Position numbers and translations under genes: made by a program. This document shows, one piece after another, positions 43,323-55,550 of a stretch of DNA of 64,000 nt. The notes beneath the pieces were generated by a model. The model had not been told where the DNA came from. It was given only the letters and a program-made list of their open reading frames with translations, and did not search any database. Location: contig NZ_CP129672.1 in NCBI RefSeq assembly GCF_030505195.1, forward strand, positions 682,001-746,000, given 5' to 3'. Each line of letters begins with the position of its first letter. The first letter of the stretch is position 1. The stretch comes from Comamonas testosteroni (GTDB lineage Bacteria > Pseudomonadota > Gammaproteobacteria > Burkholderiales > Burkholderiaceae_C).

Positions 43323-43892
43323 TTGATCCTCAAAGCCCCTCATATCGTGCTCGATCTGGAAACCCGCAGCACCAAGCCGAATGCCATCGTCGCGTCTATC
43401 GGCGCGGTAGCCATCGGCCCAGACCTGCAACTGCTGACCAGCGAATTCCACATCCCACTGGCTCAACACCTGCAGTTCCCGCGTCATGAAGACACAGAAA
43501 CCATGCGTTGGTGGGCCCAGCAGTCTCGTGAAGCCCGCGAAGCCTCAATCATGGCCGCACAAACAACACTGCCAGGCCAAGCGCTGCGCGACTTCGCAGC
43601 CTGGGTTAACAGCGTTGCTGACCCCAAAACGGTGAAGGTCTGGGGCAATGGTTCCGTCTTCGACAACGTGATCCTGCGCAGCCTCTACGACACGTACGAC
43701 CAGCCACCGCCCTGGGAATTGTTCTTTGACCGCGACATGCGAACCATCCTGGACCTGCACCCCGCCGCCAAGGATGTGGGCGAGTTTGTTGGGGTGAAGC
43801 ACATCGCCGTCGATGACGCGCGCCACGAAGCAAAGCAGTTGGCAAAGGCGCTGACCCTGCACCAAAGCCTCACCAACAAGGGGGAGCTGTGA
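43323..43892 (+). CDS. DEDDh 3'-5' exonuclease
   Basis: The product has 189 residues. It starts with TTG: AGGAG lies 7 bases upstream and no ATG fits. The exonuclease motifs are intact: Asp11-Leu-Glu13 (VLDLETRS), Asp114 in SVFDNVIL, and His160...Asp165 in KHIAVDDARHEA. This is a small single-domain RNase T/ExoX-like enzyme, close to phage 3'-5' exoribonucleases. It may degrade nucleic acid ends during early phage replication or disarm host RNA. Confidence 0.8.
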   Translation: MILKAPHIVLDLETRSTKPNAIVASIGAVAIGPDLQLLTSEFHIPLAQHLQFPRHEDTETMRWWAQQSREAREASIMAAQTTLPGQALRDFAAWVNSVADPKTVKVWGNGSVFDNVILRSLYDTYDQPPPWELFFDRDMRTILDLHPAAKDVGEFVGVKHIAVDDARHEAKQLAKALTLHQSLTNKGEL

Positions 43893-44686: not shown

Positions 44687-44970
44687 GCAGATCCCCCAGC
44701 GAAGCCAGCCGCGACTTCACCGTGCGCGGCTGGCAAGTCCTCTCCCCTGCAGAGCGTGCCGAGCGCGAAGCCCAGCAGCATCAGCCGGACAGCGACAGCT
44801 ACACGCCACCCTCGGATTGCTATGACGGCGAGGAGCTGAAGCGCACACCGGGCATCCCAGATTCCCGATTCCGCGCCTTTGAGCTGCCCAGCCGGGCCCA
44901 TGGACAGCTGAACTACCCCAACGGCACGCGAGTCCCTTTCCCTGAACCCGCTAACGAAACCGCCCGCTGA
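44683..44970 (+). CDS. Hypothetical phage protein
   Basis: The product has 95 residues, ATGA overlap with the exported protein. It is Ser/Pro/Arg-rich and probably disordered (GWQVLSPAERAEREAQQHQ, LPSRAHGQLNYPNGTRV). The stop codon lies inside the loop of the following hairpin. Unknown. Confidence 0.5.
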   Translation: MSRSPSEASRDFTVRGWQVLSPAERAEREAQQHQPDSDSYTPPSDCYDGEELKRTPGIPDSRFRAFELPSRAHGQLNYPNGTRVPFPEPANETAR

Positions 44971-44984
44971 TAAGCGGGTTTCGC
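44961..44984 (+). terminator. Hairpin-RBS unit 2 (before rdgC)
   Basis: CCCGC-TGATAA-GCGGG (44963-44978), where the loop contains the stop of the upstream gene. CGAAA/TTTCG extends the stem across a bulge. A T run and GGAG follow before the ATG at 45001. Confidence 0.65.
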
Positions 44985-45000
44985 ATTTTTTGGAGCTCAA

Positions 45001-46194
45001 ATGTTCAAGAACATGATCATTTACCGCTATGCCGAGAGCTGGCAAGCCGACCTGCAGGAGCTGGAGGATGCCCTGCGAAAGACAGTCTTCGAGGAATGCG
45101 GCGCCACCCAAGAGCGCTCCGTGGGCTGGGTGCCGCCGCGCGGAGAGGAGCACGGCCCGCTGGTCGAATCCGTGGCCGGTCAATTGGTAATGCGCTTCAT
45201 GACCGAGGCCAAGGTGCTGCCGGCCAGCGTGCTCAATCGCAAGGTCAACGAGAAAGCCGAGCACATCGAAAAGACCGAAGGCCGCAAGCCCGGCAAGAAG
45301 GAAAAGAAGGATCTCAAGGACGAGGCCAAGCTGGACCTGCTGCCCGTGGCCTTCACCAAGCAGGGCAGCATGTGGGTCTGGATCGACCCGCAGGCGCGCA
45401 CGCTGGTGCTCGATACCAGCGCCCAGGGCCGCGCTGATGAGGTGGTCACGCTGCTGGTCGAAGGCCTGCCAGGCTTCGCCCTGGCTCTGCTGGATACCCA
45501 GACCAGCCCACAGGCGGCCATGGCGCATTGGCTGATGACGCAGGAGCCGCCCGCCGGCTTCACCGCCGACCGCGAAACGGAGCTGAAGGCTGCGGACGAG
45601 TCCAAGGCTGTGGTGCGCTACGCCCGTCACCCGCTGGATATTGATGAAGTCCGCCAGCACATCGAGCACGGGAAGCTGCCCACCAAGCTGGCAATGACCT
45701 GGGACGACCGCGTGAGCTTTGTGTTGACCGAAGGCCTGCAGATCAAGAACATCACGCTGCTGGATGCAGTCATGGACGGCAACAGCAAGGATGACAGCGG
45801 ATTTGATACCGATGTAGCCATTGCCACCGGTGAGCTGTCGCGCCTGATCCCCGATCTGATCGAGGTCCTGGGTGGAGAAGGCCGCACCGCGCTGGGCGAC
45901 GGACTGCCTGCATCGCTTCAGAACGCGCCCGCTGCGGAAACCCCGCCTGCTCGCACTGCCAGGGCCGCACCCGCCCCGCACTGCGAAGCTGCTGGCGATG
46001 GTCCGGACCCGCTTTATGCCGAAGCCGTGGAGCTGGTGCGCAAGGACCGGAAGCCCAGCATTTCCTATGTGCAGCGCAAGCTGTTGATTGGCTACAACCG
46101 CGCCGCCGCTTTGCTGGAGCGCATGCAGGTCGAGGGACTGGTGTCGCGCATGGATGCCAGCGGCAAGCGCACCCTCTTGGAGCCGACCACCTAG
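45001..46194 (+). CDS. rdgC: RdgC fused to an FtsK gamma domain
   Basis: The product has 397 residues. Residues 1-305 are RdgC: MFKNMIIYRYAESW at the start, ERSVGWVPPRG near 40, a LPASVLNRKVNEKAEHIEK helix near 73, GFALALLDTQTSP near 157, and IKNITLLDAVMD near 246. An Ala/Pro linker (306-335) leads to residues 336-397 (DPLYAEAVELVRKDRKPSIS, YVQRKLLIGYNRAAALLERM, VEGLVS), the winged-helix gamma domain of FtsK, which in FtsK reads KOPS and activates XerD. RdgC rings bind duplex DNA and limit RecA. The fusion is uninterrupted. It may load RdgC at oriented sites; this is inference. Confidence 0.88.
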   Translation: MFKNMIIYRYAESWQADLQELEDALRKTVFEECGATQERSVGWVPPRGEEHGPLVESVAGQLVMRFMTEAKVLPASVLNRKVNEKAEHIEKTEGRKPGKKEKKDLKDEAKLDLLPVAFTKQGSMWVWIDPQARTLVLDTSAQGRADEVVTLLVEGLPGFALALLDTQTSPQAAMAHWLMTQEPPAGFTADRETELKAADESKAVVRYARHPLDIDEVRQHIEHGKLPTKLAMTWDDRVSFVLTEGLQIKNITLLDAVMDGNSKDDSGFDTDVAIATGELSRLIPDLIEVLGGEGRTALGDGLPASLQNAPAAETPPARTARAAPAPHCEAAGDGPDPLYAEAVELVRKDRKPSISYVQRKLLIGYNRAAALLERMQVEGLVSRMDASGKRTLLEPTT

Positions 46195-46270: not shown

Positions 46271-46294
46271 AGCCCGCCACTGAGCGGGCTTTTT
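46271..46294 (+). terminator. Hairpin-RBS unit 3 (before the C5 methyltransferase)
   Basis: AGCCCGC-CACTGA-GCGGGCT, TTTTGCTTTC, GGAG, ATG at 46310. The loop CACTGA is the same as in unit 5. Confidence 0.75.
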
Positions 46295-46309
46295 GCTTTC
46301 TGGAGCCCT

Positions 46310-48106
46310 ATGCTTACCCCTCAATTTGTGCTGGCCCTGGCTGCCAAGCTGGTCATTGACTTGTTTGCCGGTGGCGGTGGAGCCAGCACAGGCATTGAGC
46401 AGGCCATCGGCCGCCCGGTTGATGATGCGATCAACCATGATGCCGACGCCATCGGCATGCATACAGTCAATCACCCTCAGACGCGCCACCATCGCGCAGA
46501 CATCCGTGAAGTTTGCCCGCGCACTGTCACAGGCGGCCGGCCGGTGGGCCTGCTGCACGCTTCGCCGGACTGCACGCATCACAGCCAGGCACTCGGCGGG
46601 CAGCCTCGCTCGACCGAGATCCGGTCTCTTGCTTGGATTGTGGTTCGCTGGGCTGGGGTCACCAAGCCCGATGTAATCACGCTGGAGAATGTCGAGCAGA
46701 TGCTGCAATGGTCGCGTCTGATCGCCAAGCGCGACCCAGCTACAGGCCGAGTAATCACGCTGGACAAGATCAAGGACGCCAAAGGCAAAACGACCTACCG
46801 CGTGGCAGATCCGGGCGAGCGTGTTCCGCGTCATAACCAGTTTCTCGTGCCCGACAAGAAGCAACTGGGAAAGACCTGGAATCGCTTTGTGCAGAGTCTC
46901 CGGGATCTAGGCTACAAGGTGGAATGGCGCGTGATCTGCAATGCAGACCTTGGCTGCCACAGCACCCGGACCAGGCTCTACATGATCGCCCGCCGCGACG
47001 GTCTGCCCATCGTCTGGCCCGAGAAGACCCATGCCAAGAAGCCCGTAGGCGCGCTCAAGCCGCATGCGCCTGCCGCTGATTGCATCGACTGGAGCATTCC
47101 CGGTACCAGCATATTCGGCCGCAAGAAGGATCTGGCCGAGGCCACGATGCGCCGCATTGCCCATGGCATGCAAAAGTATGTGATCGGCAGTAAGGATCCA
47201 TTCATCGCCCCTGCTGCAGCAAACGCGGCCTTCATTACCAAATTCAACACCGGCTCTGTCGGCGTGGATCTGCGCGAGCCCGTGCCCACGGTGACGGCTG
47301 GCGGCAACCCGGTCCGACCCGGTACCGGCACAACGATAGGCCTGATTGCTGCCTCGTTGGTTCAGATGGGCTACGGCGAGCGAGAAGGCCAAGAGCCGCG
47401 CGCTCTGGATCTGCGGCAGGCTTTGGGTACCGTGGTTGCTGGCGGCAACAAGTTCGCAACGGCTTCAGCCTACCTTGTACAAGCGGGACATGGTGAGGGC
47501 ACCGGCGCGACAAAGCGCCGCAGCCACGGCACCAACGACATCAGGGGACCCATCGGCACGATCACTGCCAGCGGTGGGGGCCAGAGTCTTGCGACTGCCT
47601 TCATGGTTCAGGCTAATGGCGGGTTCAACACCACGCCGGCAAGGGATCTGCGAGAAGGCATGTCCACGGTCACGACGAGCGGCAGCCAGCAGCAGCTGAT
47701 TACCGCCAAGCTGGAGCAGCAGAGCCTGAGCCCCGAGCATGAGGCAGGCGCCCTGCGATGCGCTGCATTCCTGATGCGGTACCACGGCAGCGGCGGGCAA
47801 TGGGCAGACTTGCGCGATCCGATGACGACGGTAACCACGCATGACCGCCTGGCACTGGTGACCGTCTGGCTCAAGGGCGAGCCCTGGGTAATCGTAGACA
47901 TCACGCTGCGCATGCTGGTGCCGCGCGAGCTTTACAACGCTCAGGACTTCCCACCGGACTACATCATCGACCGCACGGCCGCAGGCAAGCCCTTGACGAA
48001 AACAGCCCAAGTGAAGATGGCAGGCAACAGTGTTAGCCCCCTACCCATGCGAAAAATCGTCAGCCTCAACTACAGCGAAGCAGGCCAGCTCCGAAAAGTC
48101 GCCTGA
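46310..48106 (+). CDS. C5-cytosine DNA methyltransferase with tandem DLR repeats
   Basis: The product has 598 residues. ATG at 46310 follows GGAG; the longer in-frame extension overlaps the hairpin unit. Motifs: SAM loop DLFAGGGGAS (17-26), catalytic Cys88 in SPDCTHHS (the usual Pro-Cys is here Pro-Asp-Cys), ENVEQ (126-130), CHSTRTRLYMIARRDG near 220, and GNSVSP near 578. Between motifs VIII and IX, five repeats DLRxxxxTVTxGG-like lie near residues 319, 367, 410, 446 and 501. They fill the target-recognition region. It probably methylates phage DNA against host restriction. Confidence 0.88.
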   Translation: MLTPQFVLALAAKLVIDLFAGGGGASTGIEQAIGRPVDDAINHDADAIGMHTVNHPQTRHHRADIREVCPRTVTGGRPVGLLHASPDCTHHSQALGGQPRSTEIRSLAWIVVRWAGVTKPDVITLENVEQMLQWSRLIAKRDPATGRVITLDKIKDAKGKTTYRVADPGERVPRHNQFLVPDKKQLGKTWNRFVQSLRDLGYKVEWRVICNADLGCHSTRTRLYMIARRDGLPIVWPEKTHAKKPVGALKPHAPAADCIDWSIPGTSIFGRKKDLAEATMRRIAHGMQKYVIGSKDPFIAPAAANAAFITKFNTGSVGVDLREPVPTVTAGGNPVRPGTGTTIGLIAASLVQMGYGEREGQEPRALDLRQALGTVVAGGNKFATASAYLVQAGHGEGTGATKRRSHGTNDIRGPIGTITASGGGQSLATAFMVQANGGFNTTPARDLREGMSTVTTSGSQQQLITAKLEQQSLSPEHEAGALRCAAFLMRYHGSGGQWADLRDPMTTVTTHDRLALVTVWLKGEPWVIVDITLRMLVPRELYNAQDFPPDYIIDRTAAGKPLTKTAQVKMAGNSVSPLPMRKIVSLNYSEAGQLRKVA

Positions 48107-48513: not shown

Positions 48514-49920
48514 ATGCAGAACATCGTCACTCTGGGCGAGATCAATGACGCCCTGAAAATCGCTGCAGTCACCGCAGCACAGCTCGCAGATATGGGATTC
48601 GCCGCCCTAGCGAACAAGCCCATATGCGAAGGCCTGCCGCCCGAAGAGTCGCGCCGCCTGCGCAATGCAAAGCTGTACCCGGCTGAATCCATCGGCCAGA
48701 TCCGCGTAGCCCTTGCACAGCGCTTTGCAGAGCCCGCAACCGCAGCCGATGTCCCAGCCTCTGGAGCAGCTGCGCTGAGCGAATACCTGAAAACCTGCGA
48801 GCAGCACGCGATCGTGCCGGATGTCGGCGGTGCGTTTGCCTCGGCATTCGCAGCTGGCCTCAACCTTGCTGCGTCCCAGGCAGCGCAGCCAGAAGCGACA
48901 GCAGCCATAAAGACACTGCAGAACCTTGGGTACACATATCACGGCGCCGAGCTGTGGAAGCCACCTATCGGCAAGGTTCCTGATTTCGACCTGATCGACA
49001 GCCTGCGCAATCGCATCTCAGAGTTGGAGGCTTCCCAGGCAGCGCCCGCAGCCGTGGCAGTGCCTGATGAGCGCGCGGCGTTTGAGCGCGAACTGATCGA
49101 CAACCATCACTACGTCCCCTCTGACTTCTCCTTTAAAGACGGGTTCTATGGGGGAGACGATGACTACATCCAGTTTGGCTGGGATGTGTGGAAAGCCCGA
49201 GCCGCGCTTGCCGCCACCCCGGCAGCCAACTCGGTGGAATTACACCAAATTAAAACTGCCGCGCCAGTGGTGCTGCCTGAGCCTGATGCAGCCATCAGCG
49301 AAATTATGGAGCTGGTAGAGAAGGCATCCGTCCAAAGGGCCTCGATGGCAGTCCTGATTTATACGGAACAACCGAAGGAGTTTTCGGACAAAGCCGCCGC
49401 TCAAGAGCGGGACACTGTGAAGTTGATCAAAACCAAGCTGCGCGCCCTGCTGGCTGGAGCATCTGCACCGGCGGCGCAGGCTGAGCCTGTAGCGTGGCTT
49501 TACACGCACAAGCTGGGGAGCGTCCAAGCATTTACCACTGAGCCACCGCCAGGGCTGAAAGCACAGTGCCAGCCGCTCTACACAACACCCCAGGCGCAGG
49601 CAGACGCGCGGGATGCGGGAATCACATGGCCCAAGGCGCGCGATGTGGGTCGTTTTGATGACATGAGCCCCGGCGACTCCATCCGCGTGGGCCTAGACAA
49701 CGACAACGACGTATACGTGAGCGTCTGCGGCGGCGGAGGGGTGGGCTCTGTGGAGTTCTGCAATCCGGGCGGCGGTGGCGGCGGTAAATCGAGCCGTACT
49801 CGCCTGGCGCTGCTGGCTTTGATGGTAGCCATGGAGGCCGACAACGCCGAAGACCCTTCCCGAGACTGGTGGGCTCGGAGCGCCGCCCAGGCAGCCCAGC
49901 AGGGAGGTGACAAGCAATGA
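48514..49920 (+). CDS. Mosaic accessory phage protein
   Basis: The product has 468 residues. ATG at 48514 has GGGAG 8 bases upstream; ATG at 48481 lacks one. Residues 1-90 are helical and include PPEESRRLRNAKLYPAESIG. A segment with FGWDVWKARAAL near 235 is found in many phage accessory proteins and often recombines. Gly-rich CGGGGVGSVEF lies near 410, and the C-terminal 50 residues are hydrophobic then acidic. It seems a mosaic; function unknown. Confidence 0.55.
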   Translation: MQNIVTLGEINDALKIAAVTAAQLADMGFAALANKPICEGLPPEESRRLRNAKLYPAESIGQIRVALAQRFAEPATAADVPASGAAALSEYLKTCEQHAIVPDVGGAFASAFAAGLNLAASQAAQPEATAAIKTLQNLGYTYHGAELWKPPIGKVPDFDLIDSLRNRISELEASQAAPAAVAVPDERAAFERELIDNHHYVPSDFSFKDGFYGGDDDYIQFGWDVWKARAALAATPAANSVELHQIKTAAPVVLPEPDAAISEIMELVEKASVQRASMAVLIYTEQPKEFSDKAAAQERDTVKLIKTKLRALLAGASAPAAQAEPVAWLYTHKLGSVQAFTTEPPPGLKAQCQPLYTTPQAQADARDAGITWPKARDVGRFDDMSPGDSIRVGLDNDNDVYVSVCGGGGVGSVEFCNPGGGGGGKSSRTRLALLALMVAMEADNAEDPSRDWWARSAAQAAQQGGDKQ

Positions 49921-50435
49921 GCATTCCCGCAGTTCTCGACGCCTGCTGCGGCAGCCGAATGATGTGGTTCGACAAGCAAGACGCTCGCGCCATGTTCGTT
50001 GACCAGCGCAGCGAAACCATCACCGTGACTGATAACTCTCGGGGCAATGCATCTGGCCAGCGCGTTCTGCGAGTCGAACCTGACTTCCTCATGGACTTTC
50101 GCGCTCTGACCTTTCCTGATGGTGCATTCAAGCTTGTGGCCTTCGATCCGCCCCACCTCGTCCATGCCGGGCCGCGCTCGTGGCTGGCAGCCAAGTACGG
50201 AAAGCTGGGGACAGACTGGCGTGAAGACTTGCGCCAAGGATTTGCCGAGTGCTTCCGCGTGTTGGAGCCGGGAGGCACCTTGGTGTTCAAGTGGAACGAA
50301 ACGCAAGTCAAGGTGAAGGAAGTTTTGGCGCTCACGCCGGAAAAGCCATTGTTCGGGCAAGTTAGCGGGCGCTCAGGAATGACGCACTGGCTCGTCTTTA
50401 TGAAGGCAGCCCAGCAGACACAAGGGGGCGAGTGA
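49917..50435 (+). CDS. SAM-dependent methyltransferase (DPPH type)
   Basis: The product has 172 residues, ATGA overlap with the previous stop. SAM motif LDACCGSRMMWFDK (7-20) with two Cys; catalytic FDPPHL (76-81); RVLEPGGTLVFKWNE near 117. The DPPH motif and short size fit phage N4/N6-type DNA methyltransferases without a target-recognition domain. Likely an adenine or cytosine-N4 modification of phage DNA. Confidence 0.75.
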   Translation: MSIPAVLDACCGSRMMWFDKQDARAMFVDQRSETITVTDNSRGNASGQRVLRVEPDFLMDFRALTFPDGAFKLVAFDPPHLVHAGPRSWLAAKYGKLGTDWREDLRQGFAECFRVLEPGGTLVFKWNETQVKVKEVLALTPEKPLFGQVSGRSGMTHWLVFMKAAQQTQGGE

Positions 50436-51019: not shown

Positions 51020-51083
51020 ACGAGAGATACGCCGCGCTCGCCAAGAGAAGCAGCAAAACCGCAACCCCGAGCCCCGCCACTGA
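51003..51083 (+). CDS. 26-residue basic peptide
   Basis: The frame MARPSKREIRRARQEKQQN has AGGAG 8 bases upstream and overlaps the previous gene by 17 bases. Its stop (TGA) is in the loop of the next hairpin unit, as in unit 2. Very basic, so nucleic-acid binding is possible. Confidence 0.45.
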   Translation: MARPSKREIRRARQEKQQNRNPEPRH

Positions 51084-51095
51084 GCGGGGTTCTTC
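51072..51095 (+). terminator. Hairpin-RBS unit 5 (before Gp37/68)
   Basis: CCCCGC-CACTGA-GCGGGG, TTCTTCATTTCT, GGAG, ATG at 51112. The loop contains the TGA stop of the 26-residue frame. Confidence 0.7.
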
Positions 51096-51111
51096 ATTTC
51101 TGGAGGGCCGC

Positions 51112-52087: not shown

Positions 52088-52114
52088 CCCCGCCACCGTG
52101 CGGGGTTCTTTTTT
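52088..52114 (+). terminator. Hairpin-RBS unit 6
   Basis: CCCCGC-CACCGT-GCGGGG followed by a near-continuous T tract (TTCTTTTTT), GGAG, ATG at 52126. The best terminator-like member of the set. Confidence 0.75.
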
Positions 52115-53990: not shown

Positions 53991-54242
53991 ATGACTAAAG
54001 CCACAAACAATTTCACCTGCTCCGTCACAGAAGCGGCCGAGATTCTTCAGGTGCATAGTTCCACCATTGAAAAACTCATTGCCGGCGGCGTGCTGCCCGC
54101 CGGCCGCATTGGTCGCGCCTACGTGATGCGAACCAGTGATGTGCACCGCTATGCAGAAAAAGTCATCCTGGACCAGACTTCAGAGCGGCTTACCAAAGGT
54201 CATCGGCCAAGGTCGATCCGCGCAAGTTTGCGTATCGCATGA
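53991..54242 (+). CDS. xis: Excisionase-type DNA-binding protein
   Basis: The product has 83 residues with a MerR-like/excisionase HTH at 8-60 (SVTEAAEILQVHSSTIEKLI, GRIGRAYVMRTSDVHRYAEK). It is last in the rightward operon and convergent with the integrase, overlapping its 3' end by 53 bases. In the lysogen the operon is expected to be off, which would keep excision off. It should bend attL/attR and favour excision. Confidence 0.75.
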   Translation: MTKATNNFTCSVTEAAEILQVHSSTIEKLIAGGVLPAGRIGRAYVMRTSDVHRYAEKVILDQTSERLTKGHRPRSIRASLRIA

Positions 54243-55314
54243 GCATTCTGTGGCTCTTGTGGCCAGTAATTTTCATGATCTGCGTCTCGCTGAGCTTGGT
54301 GCGCTCAAACAGGCGACTCGTCGCCTCGTGGCGCAGGTCATGGAAGAGCAGCCCAGCCGCTCCGGCTTGCTCAAAAATATCCACGAAAAGGCGCGACAAG
54401 AAATCTGTCGTGTCATTCAGCTTCTTCGCTGACTCCTCCCCCTTCAGGAAGGGGAACACCAAGTCAGCAGGGTCGGCATCACTTGGCTGGAACGCGCGCA
54501 GTTCCGCTAGTGCCACGGACGACAGCGGGACTTGCCGCTTGTCCCCGTTTTTGGTCTTGTCCAGGAAAACTGTCTTTTGCGGCAGATCCACCTGGCTCCA
54601 GCGCAGCGTATACATTTCGCGCATCCGCATTGCAGTCTCCACTGCCAGCACTGTGATGCACTTCAACGCCACTTTGTCCCGCCGCCCCTCAAGCACGAGG
54701 GGCCGCTGTGTGCGGGGCAGCACTCCCGTGGCGATCACCCCCAAGATCTTTTCCCACTCTCCCGGCTCAAGCCGTCGGTCCCGTTCACTGTCTTTTCGCA
54801 GCACGCCGGCCACGGCCGCGTCAGCCTTGGTGTATTGGGCATAGCCACTCGGCAGCGAACGAAGTGCGTGGTCAGGCATCGTGAGGAAGCCTTTGCGCAT
54901 GCCCCAGTCCGTGGCGCGAGCGAGTGCGCCGACCTTCGCATGAATCGTAGTGGGCGCTACCTTATCAATGCGCTTCATCTTGGCGATCCATTGATCGACC
55001 CAAGCCGCATTGATTTCAGTCAAGCGCACCGTGCCGAGGACCGGCAGGATGGTTTTCAGCGACGCAATATCTTTGGGCGAGGGATGGGCCTCGCGCTCGT
55101 AATCGCCAACGAGGTCAGCGATGGTCAAAACCTGCTCTGTCTGTTGGTGCTCAAGAGGAACGATGCCGCGCGCCAGCAACGCCTCCAACTTGGCCGCATA
55201 TTCATCGCCTTCCGCCTCTGTGGAAAACGTGAGATACAGCGGCTTGTCCAGTACACCCTTCCTCTTGAAGATGTACTGCCACGATCCATTTGCGAACTGC
55301 TTCTTGCCTGCCAT
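54190..55314 (-). CDS. int: Tyrosine integrase
   Basis: The product has 374 residues. The catalytic domain has Arg near 230 (AVETAMRMREMYTLRW), Lys near 255 (TKNGDKRQVPL), HDLRHEATSR near 328, GHKS near 351 and the nucleophile Tyr in MRYANLRG near 360. The N-terminus (GKKQFANGSWQYIFKRKG) is a short arm-binding domain and residues about 65-160 the core-binding helices. It recombines attP with the tRNA-Val gene next door. Confidence 0.93.
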   Translation of the reverse strand: MAGKKQFANGSWQYIFKRKGVLDKPLYLTFSTEAEGDEYAAKLEALLARGIVPLEHQQTEQVLTIADLVGDYEREAHPSPKDIASLKTILPVLGTVRLTEINAAWVDQWIAKMKRIDKVAPTTIHAKVGALARATDWGMRKGFLTMPDHALRSLPSGYAQYTKADAAVAGVLRKDSERDRRLEPGEWEKILGVIATGVLPRTQRPLVLEGRRDKVALKCITVLAVETAMRMREMYTLRWSQVDLPQKTVFLDKTKNGDKRQVPLSSVALAELRAFQPSDADPADLVFPFLKGEESAKKLNDTTDFLSRLFVDIFEQAGAAGLLFHDLRHEATSRLFERTKLSETQIMKITGHKSHRMLMRYANLRGSTLADDLW

Positions 55315-55429: not shown

Positions 55430-55455
55430 AAGGGCTTAGATTTCTCTAAGCCCTT
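55430..55455 (-). terminator. tRNA-Val terminator
   Basis: Perfect 11-base stem AAGGGCTTAGA/TCTAAGCCCTT with a 4-base loop; on the minus strand it is followed by TTTTCTTTGC. It closes the hupB-tRNA unit. As it lies on the prophage side of the tRNA 3' end, the phage may have supplied it. Confidence 0.7.
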
Positions 55456-55474
55456 GATTTCTTTAGTTTTTTAG

Positions 55475-55520
55475 TGGTGGGTCCTGACGGTCTCGAACCG
55501 CCGACCTACTCCGTGTAAAG
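55475..55520. other. Attachment site region (attR side)
   Basis: The integrase gene ends its block beside the 3' half of the tRNA, the standard target for tyrosine integrases. The core should lie in the tRNA 3' half; the exact edge needs the left end, which is outside the window. Confidence 0.55.
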
Positions 55521-55550
55521 GAGCCGCTCTACCAACTGAGCTAAGGACCC
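55475..55550 (-). tRNA. tRNA-Val(TAC)
   Basis: The cloverleaf is complete: acceptor GGGTCCT/AGGACCC, D-loop AGTTGGTAGA, anticodon loop TTTACAC (TAC), T-arm GGCGG-TTCGAGA-CCGTC, encoded CCA at 55475-55477. It lies 14 bases after hupB on the same strand, and its 3' end faces the prophage. Confidence 0.95.

Follow-up and report, generated by a model that had tools for sequence, protein, structure and literature searches.

An RdgC protein fused to an FtsK gamma domain in a Comamonas testosteroni prophage and in other mobile elements

Results

An RdgC–gamma fusion gene in a prophage at tRNA-Val

The window, by which we mean the entire 64,000-nucleotide stretch of Comamonas testosteroni DNA that was analysed (NZ_CP129672.1, positions 682,001 to 746,000), contains a gene in which RdgC is joined to the gamma domain of FtsK (Table 1). 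RdgC forms rings on duplex DNA and curbs RecA, and FtsK gamma reads oriented KOPS sequences and activates XerD. The gene sits in a 59-kb prophage integrated at tRNA-Val, a setting proposed in the first-pass annotation and borne out by an integrase beside the tRNA gene and a 78-bp flanking repeat, the two copies of which are perfect and 59,158 bp apart, with the second copy to the left of the window. The element integrates at tRNA-Val with an integrase of its own, and thus does not require gamma for integration at dif. Terminator-like hairpins occur in the window at 44963-44995, 46273-46305, 51073-51105, and 52089-52104. After each of the first three come a U-rich stretch and a TGGAG ribosome-binding site, and the hairpin start lies 37-39 bases from the next start codon. 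These hairpins may be boundaries of exchangeable single-gene modules; their z-scores are about -1.7, and matches to the stem pattern at three mismatches are not above chance (7 found and 5.3 expected). Eight RdgC matches were found in the host genome, with four extending over the full profile, and gamma was matched twice, in FtsK and in the fusion gene. Besides the four full-length copies, partial or broken rdgC matches at C1 3965916, 4916493-4917235, and 5317377 suggest several past rdgC-carrying elements in this genome.

Table 1 Features of the fusion gene and its prophage surroundings, in window positions.
Feature	Position	Strand	Basis or remark
3'-5' exonuclease, Rv2179c-like (PF16473), upstream neighbour	43323..43892	+	domain match
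Terminator-like hairpin with U-run and TGGAG ribosome-binding site, immediately 5' of the fusion gene	44963..44995	+	folding z-score only -1.74
rdgC-gamma fusion gene, 397 aa	45001..46194	+	single ORF, both Pfam domains above cut-off
RdgC domain, residues 2-293	45004..45879	+	Pfam match; fold match to 2owy/2owl
Ala/Pro-rich linker, residues 294-335	45880..46005	+	predicted structure
FtsK gamma winged helix, residues 336-393	46006..46179	+	Pfam match, structure superposition
DNA methyltransferase, downstream neighbour	46310..48106	+	start codon inspected
Second DNA methyltransferase	49917..50435	+	also a neighbour of the fusion gene
Prophage integrase	54190..55314	-	adjoins tRNA-Val
Right att repeat, 78 bp	55444..55521		identical copy at genome C1:678286
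tRNA-Val, integration target	55475..55550	-	adjoined by the integrase

The fusion is real: its two domains are encoded in one uninterrupted frame of 397 residues, as the first-pass annotation had it, and each of the parts named there was recovered. The RdgC part is full length and exceeds the curated cut-offs of both Pfam PF04381 (E 9.6e-107, 357.1 bits against a cut-off of 25) and NF001463 (481.9 bits against 324), and the predicted monomer shows the RdgC fold of 2owy and 2owl. The Ala/Pro linker that separates it from the winged helix is disordered in the predicted structure, with pLDDT below 50 for residues 309-332. The C terminus is a true FtsK gamma, matching FtsK_gamma (PF09397) with an E-value of 4e-20 and 71.7 bits against a cut-off of 30.6, and in the predicted monomer it adopts the gamma winged-helix fold, superposing on the crystal structure of KOPS-bound FtsK gamma at 1.0 Å over 61 residues. 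The profile search found no match to the FtsK motor domain in the fusion, with FtsK-type matches confined to residues 330-396. Counted manually from the translation, residues Q358, R359, L362, N366, A370, E373, and Q376 of the fusion are equivalent to Q1288, R1289, R1292, N1296, R1300, E1303, and E1306 of Escherichia coli FtsK, and the E. coli numbering is used below.

The fusion occurs in phages and plasmids

Among the protein-search matches listed, 39 of 120 relatives carry gamma. The fusion is present in phages or plasmids of Comamonadaceae, Pseudomonas, Vibrio, and others, and the named phages that encode it include Pseudomonas PA8 and its relatives, Achromobacter CF418P1, Pararheinheimera KLER1-1, and many Vibrio phages. 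At least 80% of the window protein is covered in 50 of the 201 phage records and 20 of the 1353 plasmid records that match it, and at least 80% of the PA8 protein in 34 of the 1307 plasmid records matching that protein. The initial description of the fusion as a phage gene stands for the prophage and these phages, but the fusion is not confined to phages, being found on plasmids too, and it is recurrent. An extra gamma above the cut-off was detected in 10 of 41 Comamonas genomes, a count that does not imply an RdgC fusion in each. The 386-residue RdgC–gamma protein of CF418P1 is annotated as a DNA translocase, a label that the fusion explains, and for a P. aeruginosa plasmid the gamma end alone is listed, as DNA translocase FtsK, in a gene table that omits pseudogenes, such that the gene may be interrupted.

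The genes around the fusion were inspected in several carriers. An ssb gene lies near the fusion in PA8, F1Pa, ST2-1pr, HY01, K251, and KLER1-1, an exonuclease or polymerase-exonuclease subunit gene in PA8, F1Pa, SHOU24, and the window, and methylase genes in KLER1-1, ST2-1pr, HY01, and the window. Exonuclease VIII is encoded near the KLER1-1 fusion, a RecE-like exonuclease with NinB/Orf near the Skulduggery fusion, ERF with an exonuclease near the copy on a B. vietnamiensis plasmid, a 3'-5' exonuclease ~1.5 kb from the P. aeruginosa plasmid copy, and helicases near the Acidovorax and Variovorax copies. Vibrio 51E28.1 has a DNA ligase as its sole recombination-type neighbour, and no clear recombination gene was seen near the fusion on plasmids L299 and L300. 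By and large, these neighbours would suit a protein that works within a recombination or replication module of the element itself.

RdgC and gamma appear to have been joined repeatedly

We gathered 538 RdgC proteins and kept the 535 with at least 250 RdgC residues, dropping three; 175 of those kept have gamma and 360 do not. On a 56-row RdgC tree, gamma status needs at least six changes, five of them forced by well-supported branches. Placing all fused rows in one clade was rejected on a quick tree of 32 fused and 21 unfused rows from which the long-branch rows L106, L109, and L116 had been removed (p-AU 2.1e-79, 895 log-likelihood units worse), which rejects a single origin by descent on the RdgC tree. 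In a careful tree of 52 rows, from which L071 was removed in addition, the Comamonadaceae, Pseudomonas, and Vibrio sets, so labelled by the search that returned each protein and checked as clades for these 52 rows, each form one clade with support of 100/99 or better. Every one of these clades contains fused and unfused rows (2 and 12 in Comamonadaceae, 12 and 5 in Pseudomonas, and 17 and 4 in Vibrio, respectively). The row nearest to the window protein is the gamma-less P0024, 89% identical over RdgC (support 100/94), and the RdgC part of PA8 is 89% identical to a gamma-less Pseudomonas RdgC. In P0012, a 91% identical relative, the gamma reading frame is lost after the linker and the RdgC domain is intact.

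The kinship of the gammas was assessed by identity because a domain of ~60 residues cannot support a robust tree. By this measure alone, and with FtsK reference sets of uneven size (7 from Pseudomonas and 30-31 in the others), Comamonadaceae-set gammas have a median best identity of 62% to Comamonas FtsK versus 53% to Pseudomonas FtsK, Pseudomonas-set gammas 71% to Pseudomonas FtsK versus 51% to Comamonas FtsK, and Vibrio-set gammas 56% to a gammaproteobacterial FtsK sample, composed of the best matches to a Vibrio phage gamma rather than of named Vibrio FtsKs, versus 40% to Comamonas FtsK. Vibrio-set gammas are nearly as close to the Pseudomonas fusions (54%) as to their FtsK sample, and the gammas of CF418P1 and Pseudomonas Skulduggery are 61% and 66% identical to other fusions versus 58% to any sampled FtsK, so gamma may also have moved from one element to another. 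We read these patterns as pointing to at least three separate RdgC–gamma fusions. An ancient fusion followed by repeated loss, or the swapping of tails between elements, is formally conceivable, but is opposed in the three main sets by the median likeness of gamma, which is highest to FtsK of the corresponding group, albeit by a narrow margin in Vibrio.

Gamma is maintained while its KOPS-reading residues vary

Gamma is under purifying selection. Across the window gene and its nine close relatives L011-L019 (45 pairs), dN/dS is 0.07 for RdgC, 0.09 for gamma, and 0.29 for linker residues 296-331. Among 79 fusion gammas obtained by clustering at 80%, Q1288 is present in 79, R1289 and N1296 in 77 each, and the wing residues G1318 and R1320 in 100%, and the base-reading residues R1300 and E1303 are found in 61 and 68. 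The low dN/dS of gamma together with its conserved sites indicates that the domain is maintained.

In FtsK gamma, N1296, R1300, and E1303 are described as the KOPS residues (PMC2533119). E. coli FtsK with R1300A or E1303A alone is reported to be KOPS-defective with residual recognition and to support XerCD-dif recombination, and the R1300A/E1303A/E1306A combination was used as a KOPS-'blind' allele (PMC2680272). The window copy keeps N1296 and E1303 and has Ala at 1300 and Gln at 1306; it lacks the full set of KOPS residues and differs at two of the three blind-allele positions. Because of R1300A and E1306Q, it is doubtful that this copy reads KOPS as E. coli FtsK does, and general DNA binding by its gamma is likely. 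The reported XerD contacts of gamma are Q1288, R1289, R1292, I1293, G1294, and N1296, a subset of its DNA contacts; a change of R1289 has the largest effect on recombination among gamma residues, and nine gamma residues tethered to XerC suffice for stimulation of recombination (PMC5052618). Three of the four residues Q1288, R1289, R1292, and N1296 are kept in the window copy and R1292 is replaced by Leu, and contact with XerD, weakened at position 1292, is possible.

The KOPS triad is complete in 74 of 98 FtsKs, 69 of 72 fusions in the Pseudomonas set, 23 of 38 in the Vibrio set, and 18 of 54 in the Comamonadaceae set. The gammas of the Pseudomonas fusions and many of the Vibrio fusions should read KOPS still. 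The XerD set (Q1288, R1289, K/R1292, and N1296) is complete in all 98 FtsKs and in 52 of 72, 32 of 38, and 16 of 54 fusions in the same order, and the 11 fusions outside the three sets have the KOPS triad in one case and the XerD set in ten. Among host FtsKs, position 1300 is Asn in 24 of 30 from Comamonas (L001 and L229-L257), that of the window's host included; these 24 are the only FtsKs without R1300, and the 68 other sampled FtsKs all have Arg. The Asn in the host FtsK implies that the genus may read KOPS differently, and a drift of KOPS recognition in Comamonas, with GGGNAGGG still polarised on the chromosome of the host studied here, is possible.

Gamma-bearing elements show no excess of KOPS sites

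The density of KOPS GGGNAGGG was compared in 50 of 65 chosen records, those from viral contigs possibly being fragments, and did not differ between the 25 records with gamma and the 25 without it (1.26 versus 1.19 per 10 kb, p 0.42), nor did its polarity (0.87 versus 0.86). Elements that carry gamma are therefore not marked by an enrichment of KOPS. All 8 GGGNAGGG sites in the window, where shuffled sequence would predict 12.1, lie on the minus strand. The host chromosome arm (first 780 kb of C1) has 100 such sites on the minus strand and 29 on the plus strand, and the polarity of the window matches that of the arm and gives no evidence for a special role. The first-pass proposal that gamma reads KOPS is therefore weakened for this copy: N1296 and E1303 are kept, but R1300A, E1306Q, and the lack of a KOPS excess in gamma-bearing elements argue against it. 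If gamma does read KOPS, it is more likely to do so at sites on the host chromosome than at a special set on the element.

The first-pass annotation also suggested that the phage could place RdgC near dif and so steer recombination or the processing of the host chromosome early in infection. A dif-like site was sought with a pattern that found none in the 64-kb window and that also matches nothing in the host's own genome, which makes it invalid for this host and perhaps for betaproteobacterial relatives. Across 51 genomes and records, it matched only Azotobacter, the positive control (exact), and SHOU24 (3 mismatches). The Pseudomonas and Vibrio phage records had no dif-like site save that in SHOU24 by this pattern, which had no Vibrio positive control.

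Discussion

Relation to known proteins

The fusion differs from RdgC (PF04381; 2owl, 2owy) by ~100 extra C-terminal residues, which make up the linker and gamma. Its gamma resembles FtsK gamma (PF09397; 2ve8, 2ve9, 5dcf) in its fold, wing, recognition-helix start, R1289, N1296, and E1303, but has no FtsK motor and is tethered to RdgC, and in the window copy it is further distinguished by R1292L, R1300A, and E1306Q. Database entries for such proteins already show both Pfam domains. In agreement with the earlier statement that no such fusion was known, we found no published RdgC–gamma fusion in the open-access papers searched. The small terminase of Bacillus phages Sam46 and Sam112 is a published precedent with a host-like gamma on a phage DNA-handling protein, but there the partner is different, gamma is N-terminal, and gamma is closest to that of Bacillus; the same source mentions phages that encode gamma in an ORF of its own, the role of which is unknown (PMC8190038). 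The recurrence of the RdgC–gamma fusion is its most surprising part. Lambda RexA is also a phage DNA-binding protein with an RdgC fold, but it is distant in sequence, and its description mentions no gamma (PMC11077077).

Orphan gammas occur in other phages, including Vibrio 1.257.O, Rhodobacter RcKemmy (gp60), and Pseudomonas YMC11/07/P54 (gp72), in proteins of 105-444 residues that are too short for a motor, are not matched by the RdgC query, and have partners other than that in the fusion. RcKemmy gp60 (L117 3665-4999) contains two tandem gammas, the first without R1289 and N1296, and YMC11/07/P54 gp72 (L115 3554-4486) is a 310-residue gamma protein encoded near a RecT-like annealing protein and annotated as DNA translocase FtsK. 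Gamma-less Comamonadaceae RdgCs (L004 and L077-L094) often have an acidic tail with a terminal Pro-Phe (EDDDAPF, DEEEDPPF, DTAPEEAPF), which we take to resemble the C-terminal tip of SSB. A simple rule finds this tail at 20 of 28 family loci, in 44 of 81 gamma-less relatives listed, and at 7 of 36 gamma-less viral-contig loci, and in none of the 129 proteins of the Pseudomonas set or the 86 of the Vibrio set. Gamma occupies the position of the acidic tail, and gamma followed by the tail is seen in 5 of 39 fusions among the relatives listed.

Possible roles of gamma on RdgC

Other RdgCs are known to form rings and to inhibit RecA (as cited in PMC11077077), and by analogy the fusion could do both. 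Starting from the computed domains and folds, the selection on gamma, the recurrence on the RdgC tree, and the host-like gamma, we propose that gamma acts as a targeting tether for the RdgC ring, a reading to which we give a little less than an even chance. An RdgC dimer ring would carry the gamma of a host-type FtsK on two flexible tethers, and mobile elements would have built it repeatedly out of rdgC and ftsK genes of host type. Gamma would deliver the ring to, or hold it on, DNA or XerD-bound DNA that host FtsK would engage, with the ring restraining RecA-driven recombination at that DNA early in the DNA metabolism of the element. The Comamonas prophage copy probably discriminates KOPS less well, with much of the DNA-facing and XerD-contact surface kept. 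The equal KOPS density, the R1292L, R1300A, and E1306Q changes, and the scant recombination context of some carriers speak against a targeting tether. The tethered gamma could instead bind XerD at dif, activating or blocking dimer resolution and coupling RecA restraint to Xer recombination. We consider this somewhat unlikely. R1289, the residue of strongest effect, is kept in 171 of 175 fusions, nine gamma residues tethered to XerC stimulate recombination (PMC5052618), and R1300A leaves XerCD-dif recombination intact (PMC2680272). However, the residues that contact XerD all contact DNA as well, so conservation of R1289 cannot separate XerD docking from DNA binding, and R1292 is Leu in the window copy, the full XerD set is found in 16 of 54 Comamonadaceae-set fusions versus all sampled FtsKs, and among the tested Pseudomonas and Vibrio phage records only SHOU24 has a dif-like match.

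The drift of R1300 and E1303, with the wing and helix-start residues holding, and the unremarkable KOPS content of the carriers would also be consistent with gamma as an extra non-specific winged helix that raises the affinity of RdgC for DNA or bridges DNA, with specificity for neither KOPS (GGGCAGGG) nor XerD. This is unlikely, given that separate RdgC lineages each have an FtsK-type gamma with a median closest to the FtsK of the matching group, and that 69 of 72 Pseudomonas-set fusions keep the KOPS triad. The resemblance of gamma to that of host FtsK would equally suit a decoy that competes with FtsK for KOPS or XerD and disturbs segregation to the element's benefit, but the fusion is also present on large plasmids and in an integrated prophage, where harm to segregation is costly, making a decoy very improbable. 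A chance joining that left gamma without a role would be in keeping with close gamma-less relatives such as P0024 and with the lost reading frame in P0012; the dN/dS of 0.09 and the repeated origin oppose it, and purifying selection largely refutes it, leaving it barely credible.

No address is known for RdgC as an inhibitor of RecA, and the address-reading FtsK gamma usually comes attached to a motor. The recurrent fusion of the two suggests selection for placing recombination control at particular sites. The fusions also offer natural gamma variants for separating KOPS reading from XerD activation. More tentatively, and with the balance somewhat against it, the convergent joining of host RdgC to host FtsK gamma in mobile elements of different proteobacterial hosts may have produced an addressable anti-RecA factor that reads the host's orientation code or docks on XerD, its address drifting in lineages such as Comamonas. 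If true, these mobile elements would have tied recombination control to the host's chromosome-processing machinery.
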